NCBI RefSeq assembly: GCF_009807095.1
Contig: NZ_WUCC01000003.1
Span: 186,001-250,000 of the forward strand
From: Rathayibacter sp. VKM Ac-2754
GTDB lineage: Bacteria; Actinomycetota; Actinomycetes; Actinomycetales; Microbacteriaceae
Reading direction: 5' to 3'
DNA: 64,000 nucleotides
Made by a program: the position numbers and the translations under genes. Positions 20,734 to 24,045 of this stretch are shown here, one piece after another. Numbering within the stretch: the first letter of the stretch is position 1; each line of letters begins with the position of its first letter. A model generated the notes under the pieces. The model was given only the letters and a program-made list of their open reading frames with translations. It was not told the origin of the DNA and searched no databases.

Positions 20734-20865
20734 GCCCGGCGGGCTAACCAACAGCGGTGACACATTCCGCAGCAACAGTCGAGGAGTGCGGGGAGTCGAT
20801 TTCAGTGGAGCCTTCCGTGTCGATCCAAACTGACCGCCAGTATCAGTGGTAGCAGGCAACACCCC

Positions 20866-20886
20866 GTGCTTGACTTGCGCAAGCAC
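20866..20886. repeat. inverted repeat upstream of the EACC1-like gene
   Basis: GTGCTTG at 20866-20872 pairs with CAAGCAC at 20880-20886 across 7 nt, and the inner CTTGCGCAAG is a second palindrome. It lies about 85 nt before the start codon: a possible operator or a hairpin in the leader. No convincing -10/-35 pair could be placed. Confidence 0.4.
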
Positions 20887-20971
20887 GCCGACGGCGAAGA
20901 GATCCGACGAGCGGCGTGCTACAAATTAAGCAATTGCACTTTGCGGCAACAAGATGAATTTGAGGGAATCA

Positions 20972-21325
20972 ATGAGCGAACTAGCTGCGTTTCGAGTATC
21001 ACTTCCCGCTGCGATCGCTGAGGAGATGCTCGGTGAGCAAATTGCGCAGAAATCTGTCGACGTCCGAAACGGAGACATAATCGGCCTCGCCCTCGATATT
21101 GCGGAAGGAGTTGCAACGACGGTTGGTCTTGTTGTTGCGGTCTCAGAGATCAGTGACATTTCGAGAAAACTCCTGAACCACATCGGGCGCAAGTCGAAAA
21201 AGGCTGTAGTCGTGACGCTCCGCTACGAAGGAGTAACGACAGAGCATCGCCTTACGGACGACCCCGAAGCCGCTGTGCGTGAGCTCGAGCAAATCATTAA
21301 AGAGCGAATGCGCCCGATCGACTAA
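20972..21325 (+). CDS. EACC1-like small protein of a predicted conflict system
   Basis: 117 residues from ATG 20972, preferred over ATG 20954 because GAGGGA at 20962-20967 sits just before it. Short N-terminal beta/alpha part, then a Gly/Ala/Val-rich hydrophobic stretch (IIGLALDIAEGVATTVGLVV), a basic link (RKLLNHIGRKSKK), then a beta strand AVVVTLRYEG and a helix AVRELEQIIKER. This order resembles the effector-associated constant component 1 (EACC1) proteins described as fixed partners of proteolytic effectors in bacterial conflict systems; the match is by pattern and context, not by search. Convergent with, and overlapping by 29 bp, the CHAT protease gene. Confidence 0.6.
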   Translation: MSELAAFRVSLPAAIAEEMLGEQIAQKSVDVRNGDIIGLALDIAEGVATTVGLVVAVSEISDISRKLLNHIGRKSKKAVVVTLRYEGVTTEHRLTDDPEAAVRELEQIIKERMRPID

Positions 21326-23960
21326 CACTCTCGTCGGAGGAGAGTCCTACGACGACGGAGCTCACCGTGAGCCCTGCCCACCAGTAGATATCTCGACGTC
21401 CGGCATTTTCCGCGATGAAGCGCTTCTGAGCATAAGCAAGCGCTTGTCCGAGCGAGGACTTCGCCAGCAACTGTTCCAACACGCCTTGAACGAGCATTGA
21501 GGTCTCCCTCGCTGGCACGGCCCAGAGACTGCTCAGGACCTCTTGCGCTCCGCGTGCATGTAGGGTTGCTAATAGTCCTGTGACATCCACCTCCCCATCG
21601 GAACCAGAAAAGCAAGACGCAGCTATCACGCGGGCAGGAATCCTTAAGCCAAGTAGATCGTGGACGAAGAGCGGTTCACCCTCCTCGGCGGTAAACCGGT
21701 AGCCCATGCCCACGCCCTCTCCATGGGAGCTTAGAATCAGTAAGTCGAATGTTTCGTCCGCCAGTGCGAACCGCAACGCAGCCGGGTCCACCACGAGTGT
21801 CAGATGCAATACGCCCAGCGCCTCGAGGCGTCGTAAATTTTCTACCTCACCGCGAGCGCTTTCGGAAGCGAGCATCAGAACCATCGGCACATCCCTCATC
21901 GACTGTACCGGTCGGGAATCGGCCGGAGGTACGAAAGGCGCATGAAGAATTTCTCTCCGCTTGATGAGAAGCTCACCTTTGCTGCCTAAGGCAGCAATTG
22001 GAATATTACGGAGTTGGCCGTCGACATCGAAAAGCACCCTTTCCCCGTCAGCCCGCTTCTGCATCAAGTCCACCCCCAAAGCAATGGCTAACTCAACACG
22101 CGCCACCTGCCAAAGTTCCTCAAAACTCGAGACCATAGAAGAAAGAATAGGATCGAAGCGCCTCGCGAGAACGCCAAGTAGCTTGACTGTCCCCGCTCGC
22201 AATCGGGTTGATCGCAACCACATACGGCCCGAAGGCTCGGAGATTGCCGACACCAACCTGACCCTTCCATCAACGTCGATTACCGTCGCAGTGACTGTCC
22301 AACTCCCAAGGAGAACAGGAACTTCGCGACGCGTGACGGGCCGCGGCATGAGTACCGACGCGTAACCGGCTCCTACCGCTGCCGATAGTTTGCGGCGAAG
22401 TTCCTCAATTCTTGAGGTTAGCTCGTGGATGTCAAAGCCGCCGAGCGAGGACTCCACTGCCCTAAGAGAACTCCGCAGTTCCACGAGGAGCGATTGCGCG
22501 ACAGGAGAGAGCGGAATCGACGAAGAAAGAACCAACTCACGCAACGTACCCTCACGCCATGCCTGCATGATGGCGATTGCTGAGTGCGCGGAGGCGGAAC
22601 CTGCTGATACGAGCGTGACCGCGAACAAGCACGTTTCGAGCAACCTTCTCCGAGCGACTATTGCAACGCGGCGCTCATGCGGAGTGAGCACACCACCTCC
22701 CAAGACGGACATTGCCTCCGCGGCGCGGAGCACGCATTGAAGGGCACGATGATCTTCACCGTTTCTAGCGCAGGCGATAGCCATATCTCCCAAAAACTCA
22801 GCGATGAGCGAGAATGGCACTTGCCACGCAAAGTCTACTTCTAGTCGAGCCACAATCGATGCCGCATATTGGAAGGAACCTTCCTCGTTGGCAAGTCGCA
22901 CAAGCGGACCCGCAAGTACGGCGCCGGCCGCACCCGAGTAAAGGTCAGCGACTCCGACCGCGTTCGCGAAGTCGCGGGCGTGGTTCACGTCACTAGTTCT
23001 CAAGATAAATCGCAACTCCAGGCCTGTTGCTAGCAGCATGGCTGTTCGACGAATATTGGTCCCATCGCCAATCTCTCGGCGTACATCACTCAGCTCTTGC
23101 GCTGCCCGTTGCAATTCGCCCGCTTCTTCGTCTATCCAAGACCTCACTTGACCGAGAGTTACTACAAGCAGATCCGCCGTCTCTTGCGGTAAGGGGGTCC
23201 GAAATTGCGCTCTCGCGCCAGCTAGCGAGGTTGCCCTTTGGCTGTTGACGGACGCCGCCTCCCTGTCATTCAGGAGCATCGCCGTTAGTGCGAGGAGAAC
23301 TGACGCCATATAGGTTATTTTGACATCGCCCTCGCTCGTCGATATTTTGAGAACTAGCTGTAGGACCCGACGTGCATCCGATATTCTAAGCTGAGTTAGT
23401 AGAGCCCAGCCAGCGGACGCCAATGAACCTAACCAAATCGTCCATGCCTGCGAAAAAGCGGTTGCCGCGCTCATCAGTGCCCGGTCAGTCACTAGATCGG
23501 CCCAGGCGTCTTCGAGAGCCGCGAGGTCAGCAGTGAGGCGAGAATGGTTTGCCGTGATCGCATCAATTGCCATTCTGGCTGCGAATAGATTCGGCAATAA
23601 TTGCTTAGCAAAATCGGGATCGACATGCTCGATTAAGTCAATCGCTGCCTGAATATTGCTGGAGGCGGCATCCATCTGATCGCCAGTAGGCTCTTCAGCC
23701 TTCATGATTGCCACCCCCGAAGCGAGAGCGCCAACGAGAACCGACTTCGCGAGAGCCGGACGTCCCTCAGCTAAGGCGACGATCTCGCTGGCCAGGGCTA
23801 TAGCGGAGTCGGGATCGCCATTATCGGCCGCCCGTAGTGCATTCGCGGCAAGCGATCGACCCTTCAACCACCGCACAGCCGCTCCGCTCATCGCCCCGAC
23901 CACAGACAAGTAATGGGTTACGTCGCCGCTTGCCCAGATCGACGCCGGTACTTGGCTCAC
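21297..23960 (-). CDS. CHAT-domain (caspase-like) protease with helical-repeat N-terminus
   Basis: 887 residues from GTG 23960 (864 from ATG 23891; the start is uncertain, GAGGGC precedes the GTG). Residues 1 to about 590 are almost all alpha-helical with TPR-like Ala/Leu spacing. The last ~290 residues form a CHAT domain: RNIPIAALG, LLILSSHGEGVGMGY with the catalytic His746, VIAASCFSGSDG with the catalytic Cys783, and the C-terminal VLSSLWAVPARETSMLV helix. CHAT proteases cleave partner proteins on activation in defence and cell-death systems. The helical part is the likely sensor or regulatory region. Codon usage and G+C are far from the flanking genes. The partner is the EACC1-like gene, tail to tail. 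Confidence 0.85.
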   Translation of the reverse strand: MSQVPASIWASGDVTHYLSVVGAMSGAAVRWLKGRSLAANALRAADNGDPDSAIALASEIVALAEGRPALAKSVLVGALASGVAIMKAEEPTGDQMDAASSNIQAAIDLIEHVDPDFAKQLLPNLFAARMAIDAITANHSRLTADLAALEDAWADLVTDRALMSAATAFSQAWTIWLGSLASAGWALLTQLRISDARRVLQLVLKISTSEGDVKITYMASVLLALTAMLLNDREAASVNSQRATSLAGARAQFRTPLPQETADLLVVTLGQVRSWIDEEAGELQRAAQELSDVRREIGDGTNIRRTAMLLATGLELRFILRTSDVNHARDFANAVGVADLYSGAAGAVLAGPLVRLANEEGSFQYAASIVARLEVDFAWQVPFSLIAEFLGDMAIACARNGEDHRALQCVLRAAEAMSVLGGGVLTPHERRVAIVARRRLLETCLFAVTLVSAGSASAHSAIAIMQAWREGTLRELVLSSSIPLSPVAQSLLVELRSSLRAVESSLGGFDIHELTSRIEELRRKLSAAVGAGYASVLMPRPVTRREVPVLLGSWTVTATVIDVDGRVRLVSAISEPSGRMWLRSTRLRAGTVKLLGVLARRFDPILSSMVSSFEELWQVARVELAIALGVDLMQKRADGERVLFDVDGQLRNIPIAALGSKGELLIKRREILHAPFVPPADSRPVQSMRDVPMVLMLASESARGEVENLRRLEALGVLHLTLVVDPAALRFALADETFDLLILSSHGEGVGMGYRFTAEEGEPLFVHDLLGLRIPARVIAASCFSGSDGEVDVTGLLATLHARGAQEVLSSLWAVPARETSMLVQGVLEQLLAKSSLGQALAYAQKRFIAENAGRRDIYWWAGLTVSSVVVGLSSDESVSRSGAFAL

Positions 23961-24045
23961 GCCCTCACCGAAACACACTTTACGGCTGAGAGCGCGCGGA
24001 GCTAGCTGTGCCAAGACGGCGGCGGACCGTGCGACCCCTCGCGAG

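Follow-up and report, generated by a model that had tools for sequence, protein, structure and literature searches.

A CHAT-domain protease gene and a small convergent gene on one low-GC insert: a candidate two-gene conflict cassette

In the account of it given by Kaur et al. (PMC7159879), an actinobacterial conflict system couples a caspase with EACC1, a small membrane protein with one helix, whose gene lies 5' of the effector gene; the effector frequently begins with a caspase domain. Defense systems that bear a CHAT domain are also known, and a table in PMC10952713 names Borvo and type III-E CRISPR. According to PMC10028731, Csx29 cleaves Csx30, a protein from the same locus.

Within the 64-kb stretch of DNA analyzed here (the window), a gene for a CHAT protein adjoins a gene for a protein of 117 amino acids (aa), which an initial annotation had called EACC1-like. 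Our literature searches, which took in few subscription journals and no preprints, returned no description of a convergent CHAT/small-protein pair. Here, we compare the two genes, their insertion site and their relatives with the described systems.

Two convergent genes on one low-GC insert

The CHAT gene lies on the minus strand (21297-23960) and encodes 887 aa from a GTG start. This start is uncertain, as the spacing of the ribosome site at the GTG (23960) is poor and a second candidate, an ATG in the same frame, lies at 23891. A Pfam scan of the 887-aa protein placed a CHAT domain at residues 628 to 866 (minus strand, 21363-22079; PF12770, E = 2.6e-21), with a score of 76.8 bits against a curated cut-off of 24. 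On the basis of the sequence and alignments, the predicted general base is His746 in the motif SSHGEG (codon at 21723-21725, minus strand), and the predicted nucleophile is Cys783 in the motif AASCFSG (21612-21614, minus strand). Both residues are invariant in a 4-sequence and a 7-sequence alignment of CHAT proteins, and they line up with the dyad in most of 14 other CHAT proteins. The position, strand and length of the gene, its full CHAT domain and its catalytic pair are all as initially annotated. In a separate observation on the same 14 proteins, the His position does not read HG in five (L104, L106, L108, L110 and L111); these form a CHAT-like group from one genus (g102) and are possibly inactive or misaligned.

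As a single sequence, the 887-aa protein matched none of the solved chains. A profile of seven CHAT domains, the one from the window included, matched the solved chain 8rot_B at E = 7.5e-17, the TPR-CHAT chains of Craspase at about 1e-10, Csx29 at 6e-6 (Csx29/TPR-CHAT chains together, 9e-11 to 0.003) and separases weakly. A single-sequence AF2 model of the CHAT part had a mean pLDDT of 33. N-terminal to the domain, residues 1 to 600 (minus strand, 22160-23960) are probably a helical repeat (TPR-like) solenoid, as judged from composition and from Pfam matches under the cut-off (TPR_14, E = 2.1; TPR_2, E = 4.1). The helical N-terminus that had been annotated is seen only weakly, in TPR matches below threshold. 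The gene is the only CHAT gene in its genome.

The small open reading frame (ORF) lies on the plus strand (20972-21325), and its 3' end overlaps that of the CHAT ORF by 29 nt (21297-21325, from the ORF coordinates). A ribosome-binding-like GAGGG, read directly from the plus strand at 20962-20966, ends 5 bases 5' of its ATG; an alternative in-frame ATG at 20954 would give a protein of 123 aa. Scored on the codon usage of the CHAT gene, the ORF reaches +21.0 bits in its own frame and -13.9 to -89.3 in the other five, and the highest score among 500 base shuffles was -10.9 (mean, -67.0; standard deviation, 19.3). Length alone is not significant: when the region was shuffled 500 times, an open stretch of at least 117 codons arose in 55 cases. 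The small ORF is a real gene by its codon usage, if not by length alone.

The small protein has a hydrophobic stretch at residues 39 to 57 (plus strand, 21086-21142), with a mean hydropathy of 1.84 and a summed insertion cost of 5.3 on a simple published scale. The stretch includes one Asp, one Glu and two glycines, and as a predicted membrane helix it is marginal. A single-sequence AF2 model (mean pLDDT, 54) suggests a separate strand-strand-helix end, and no solved chain similar to the protein was found. The strand, length and convergence of the small ORF and its hydrophobic Gly/Ala middle are as annotated, and the annotated beta-then-helix end agrees with the low-confidence model.

Both genes lie in a low-GC insert of about 3.3 kb between a short-chain dehydrogenase (SDR) gene and aspS (20742-24022, with limits good to about 10 bases), and they alone fill it. 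The GC content of the insert is 0.571 versus 0.722 in the left flank. At third codon positions (GC3), the CHAT gene (0.582) and the small gene (0.568) resemble each other, whereas the flanking genes stand at 0.957 and 0.985. In two genomes of the same genus (G263 and G685), the SDR and aspS flanks join within 14 and 4 bp, and the insert is absent. Because the flanks meet directly in these relatives and the two genes share their GC3, the CHAT and small genes very probably arrived together as one compact foreign unit. This upholds the compact unit of the initial annotation in so far as it consists of a real CHAT gene and a real small gene of like composition on one insert.

The insert is flanked by the SDR gene on one side and by a gene for a class II aminoacyl-tRNA synthetase of the D, K, N type on the other, and the immediate neighbors comprise SDR, His phosphatase, thioredoxin-like and aminoacyl-tRNA synthetase genes. 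The annotated lack of a neighboring NTPase holds for the immediate flanks, and no defense gene lies immediately beside the pair. The edges of the insert share no direct repeat of at least 8 bases and one 8-base inverted match. There is no tRNA in the window, and the hit counts of promoter and terminator scans were about those expected by chance (2 versus 1.3 and 2 versus 3.4, respectively).

We compared the junction across the genus (window positions 20736-24030 and loci L117, L119, L122, L127, L128 and L130 to L138). All 15 genomes, our own included, carry aspS. The SDR-aspS distance is below 200 bp in five of them (14, 4, 196, 109 and 56 bp), and the junction carries 1.3 to 7.8 kb of differing cargo in the other ten, including that of the window. 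The cargo in the window has the lowest GC content (0.571, versus 0.655 to 0.768 for the other nine). Ten cargo proteins scanned from other genomes were ordinary metabolic or regulatory proteins, namely oxidoreductases, one exonuclease, one wall-binding peptidase, components of ABC transporters, a regulator of the LacI type, one histidine kinase and one response regulator. We considered the junction as a defense hotspot and rejected the idea on this ordinary cargo. Given the differing, ordinary contents in other genomes, the SDR-aspS junction is a variable site and no defense island, and the CHAT pair is a single separate arrival.

The small protein compared with EACC1

Pfam EACC1 (PF19953) does not match the 117-aa protein. 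A whole-genome search with the same model found nothing at the small gene and two sub-threshold matches elsewhere (E = 0.049 and 0.44). We drew on 16 EACC1 matches, which came from 11 of the 118 class genomes searched, and built a local profile from 12 of these, dropping four that were longer, incomplete or uncleanly called (L078, L079, L083 and L085). On this profile, the small protein scored 1.4 bits, whereas left-out true members scored 34.4 to 86.9 bits. Nulls were provided by 2,000 shuffles and 142 small gene-called proteins; the small protein ranked 294th of the 1,960 scored among its own shuffles and 11th of 137 among real small proteins. An hhalign comparison with EACC1 gave a probability of 1.1% locally and 0.2% globally.

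Gene layout also differs. Nine of the 12 EACC1 loci have a co-directional next gene that encodes a Peptidase_C14 domain near its start; no Peptidase_C14 was seen in the stretch examined at the remaining three. All nine EACC1 partners scanned carry this domain at the N-terminus, whereas in the window the two genes converge and the CHAT domain is C-terminal. The EACC1 likeness proposed for the small protein thus fails on the missing Pfam match, the shuffle-like profile score, and a gene order and partner architecture unlike those of the 12 loci, and we reject the assignment on sequence.

One could still suppose a very divergent true EACC1 system, its EACC1 beyond sequence detection and its caspase replaced by a CHAT protease. 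The small protein has the same length as EACC1, its central hydrophobic stretch is of similar place and strength (1.84, versus 1.39 to 2.21 among EACC1 members), and its strand and helix order looks similar by eye. Set against this are the scores just given (1.4 bits on the 12-member profile and 1.1% in local hhalign), the differing gene order and partner architecture, and the commonness of the layout: of 69 small proteins taken from the compared loci and the window, 14 have a central hydrophobic stretch. We consider such an origin very improbable. The small protein may work like EACC1, but filing it as EACC1 is unsupported. Since the layout recurs in so many small proteins, a label based on size and hydrophobic layout is unsafe, and the wider lesson is that an EACC1 label needs more than these two features.

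Searches for a second pair

At E ≤ 0.001, homologs of the small protein were found in none of 299 family genomes, its own aside. Weaker matches came from the class (31 of 296 genomes at E ≤ 0.1; best, 8.3e-4), the genus (1 of 15 genomes, at 0.0075, with a stop inside the match) and the phylum (8 of 346 genomes at E ≤ 0.01; best, 6.9e-5), genome sets that overlap with each other and with the family set. The alignments inspected (all eight from the phylum and part of those from the class) are pieces only, inside much longer open frames, and we read them as chance. The strongest counter to the absence of a homolog is the match at 6.9e-5, which sits in a 636-aa open frame. A search of 4,381 small ORFs from the CHAT, EACC1 and junction loci gave a best E of 0.24 (reversed control, 1.2), and plasmids and phages yielded no match at E ≤ 10.

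For the full CHAT protein, no match at 1e-8 was found in 394 class genomes, its own aside. The CHAT part alone matched 13 of 346 phylum genomes at 1e-3 (best, 2.7e-7) and none of 125 family genomes; in plasmids, the only matches were eight weak cyanobacterial CHAT/TPR proteins (E = 0.01 to 0.6). Scans of genome contigs and viral sequences, one of which included EACC1, turned up no confirmed relative; these scans miss distant relatives, as they require short exact or near-exact peptides. The nearest CHAT proteins, those of locus L055 and of the 13 phylum genomes, share about 30% identity over the catalytic part. The nearest within the genus (1.2e-7; 29%) is a 1023-aa CHAT protein encoded at L055:4674-7745, which is another site in G263, one of the two relatives that lack the insert. 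Two further genes come after its own, encoding 179 and 111 aa, and neither resembles the small gene in the window.

CHAT genes are patchy, with at least one, in varied places, in 12 of 40 genus and order relatives. We compared 26 regions derived from 27 matches (our own included) together with 13 regions from the phylum, and a local CHAT profile recovered the ORF in 37 of these 39, missing L054 and L059. Five of the 36 other CHAT loci have a hydrophobic ORF of 80 to 160 aa within 300 bp, none of them similar to the small protein. No second pair appeared among these 36 loci. This absence is limited to the searches made, because gene calls were rough and exact-peptide scans see close relatives only. 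Within that scope, the small protein has no detectable EACC1 similarity and the pair does not recur elsewhere. By eye, three other loci (L103, L107 and L112) have CHAT proteins of 869 to 961 aa near ECF sigma-like genes or small companions, and the sigma-factor neighbors recall the protease/sigma link of type III-E CRISPR.

The two genes could be passengers of one foreign DNA piece, with no working link between them. An unlinked passenger is conceivable given the convergent order and a pair seen only once so far; the searches made yielded no convincing homolog of the small protein, and the SDR-aspS junction takes unrelated genes in other species. Arguing the other way, the insert consists of only these two genes, with overlapping ends and equal codon usage. 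On balance, we see this as a somewhat unlikely explanation, though one to be taken seriously.

Possible function and likeness to known systems

The reading that we favor, plausible if still tentative, is a horizontally acquired compact two-gene cassette, in which a CHAT protease is paired with a dedicated partner that associates with the membrane as a regulator or sensor. Of this reading, the foreign two-gene insert itself has good support. The larger product would be a caspase-like cysteine protease with a long, probably TPR-like helical N-terminus, and the small protein its dedicated partner, most likely a membrane-associating regulator or sensor. The protease would be held inactive until a trigger, such as phage infection or envelope stress, is registered, either by its helical region or via the small protein at the membrane. 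Cleavage of a cellular or phage target at the His746/Cys783 site would follow, and the infected cell would arrest growth or die. By analogy with Borvo and type III-E CRISPR, a CHAT protease on an accessory insert points to a possible role of programmed proteolysis in conflict.

Several lines of evidence are consistent with such a cassette: the CHAT domain and dyad, the profile match to solved CHAT proteases, the equal GC3, the fit of the small gene to the codon usage of the CHAT gene, and a single insert missing from relatives. CHAT domains occur in known defense systems, a caspase with a one-helix partner provides a precedent, and CHAT genes are accessory. Against the cassette stand the lack of a second copy in the searches made and the convergent order, which is unusual for a regulator and effector and means that the two share no transcript. 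The hydrophobic stretch, interrupted by Asp and Glu, is marginal; no defense gene is immediately adjacent, and the junction in relatives holds ordinary metabolic and regulatory genes. Searches with PADLOC and PHROGs gave no match, and the AF2 models are of low confidence.

The small protein might instead be the substrate of the CHAT protease, kept latent until cleavage releases its hydrophobic helix to act on membranes. Bacterial gasdermins, which are cleaved by their proteases, would be the model for such an arrangement, although the small protein is too short for a gasdermin. The hydrophobic middle and the separate strand-strand-helix end suggested by the low-confidence model would suit a protein of this kind, and separate promoters, which the convergent order requires, suit a stockpiled substrate. 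That CHAT proteases can cut a protein from their own locus is described for Csx29 and Csx30 in PMC10028731. Yet no cleavage site can be named, there is no homolog for comparison, and acidic residues lie within the helix; we hold this alternative to be unlikely. Most economically, the small protein would serve the protease, either as a membrane-side regulator or as a substrate; the sequence favors neither over the other.

Returning to the regulated cassette, a narrower form of it would be a hitherto undescribed minimal module, controlled by a protease and mobilized on the 3.3-kb insert, in which an orphan helical-repeat CHAT protein works with a convergently encoded, membrane-associating protein of a new family, and its trigger is set jointly by the 29-nt antisense overlap of the two transcripts and by contact between protease and partner. 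We rate this specific version as distinctly unlikely.

Among described systems, the EACC1-caspase system, as set out under System 4 in Kaur et al. (2020; PMC7159879), shares with the pair a two-gene make-up of a caspase-like protease and a protein of about 120 aa. The small proteins of both have one central hydrophobic stretch, and the EACC1 system occurs in the same taxonomic class. In EACC1 loci, by contrast, the small gene comes first, on the same strand as a gene with an N-terminal Peptidase_C14, whereas the window has convergent genes, a C-terminal CHAT domain and a small protein with no sequence similarity to EACC1.

Csx29/TPR-CHAT of type III-E CRISPR (Craspase) resembles the larger protein in having a helical part followed by CHAT with a His/Cys dyad. 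It differs in its setting, as the immediate flanks in the window hold no gRAMP/Cas7-11, Csx30 or CASP-sigma; Csx30, at the 565 residues given in PMC10028731, is far bigger than the 117-aa protein. Borvo (BovA), a phage defense gene, is likewise a CHAT protein in an accessory locus, but the CHAT protein in the window matches no PADLOC BovA model and has a small neighbor. Two other members of our CHAT alignment do match BovA models (best, 6.5e-7). Of the solved chains, 8rot_B, a CHAT domain-containing protein of 991 aa, matches the CHAT profile best; we found no paper for this code.

Taken together, these comparisons suggest that the cassette is a rare orphan helical-repeat-CHAT variant of the CHAT conflict proteases with an uncharacterized small partner. 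The pair is small enough for a two-gene laboratory test. If it works as a unit, it would represent a second, independently built plan of protease and small membrane partner, beside that of EACC1.
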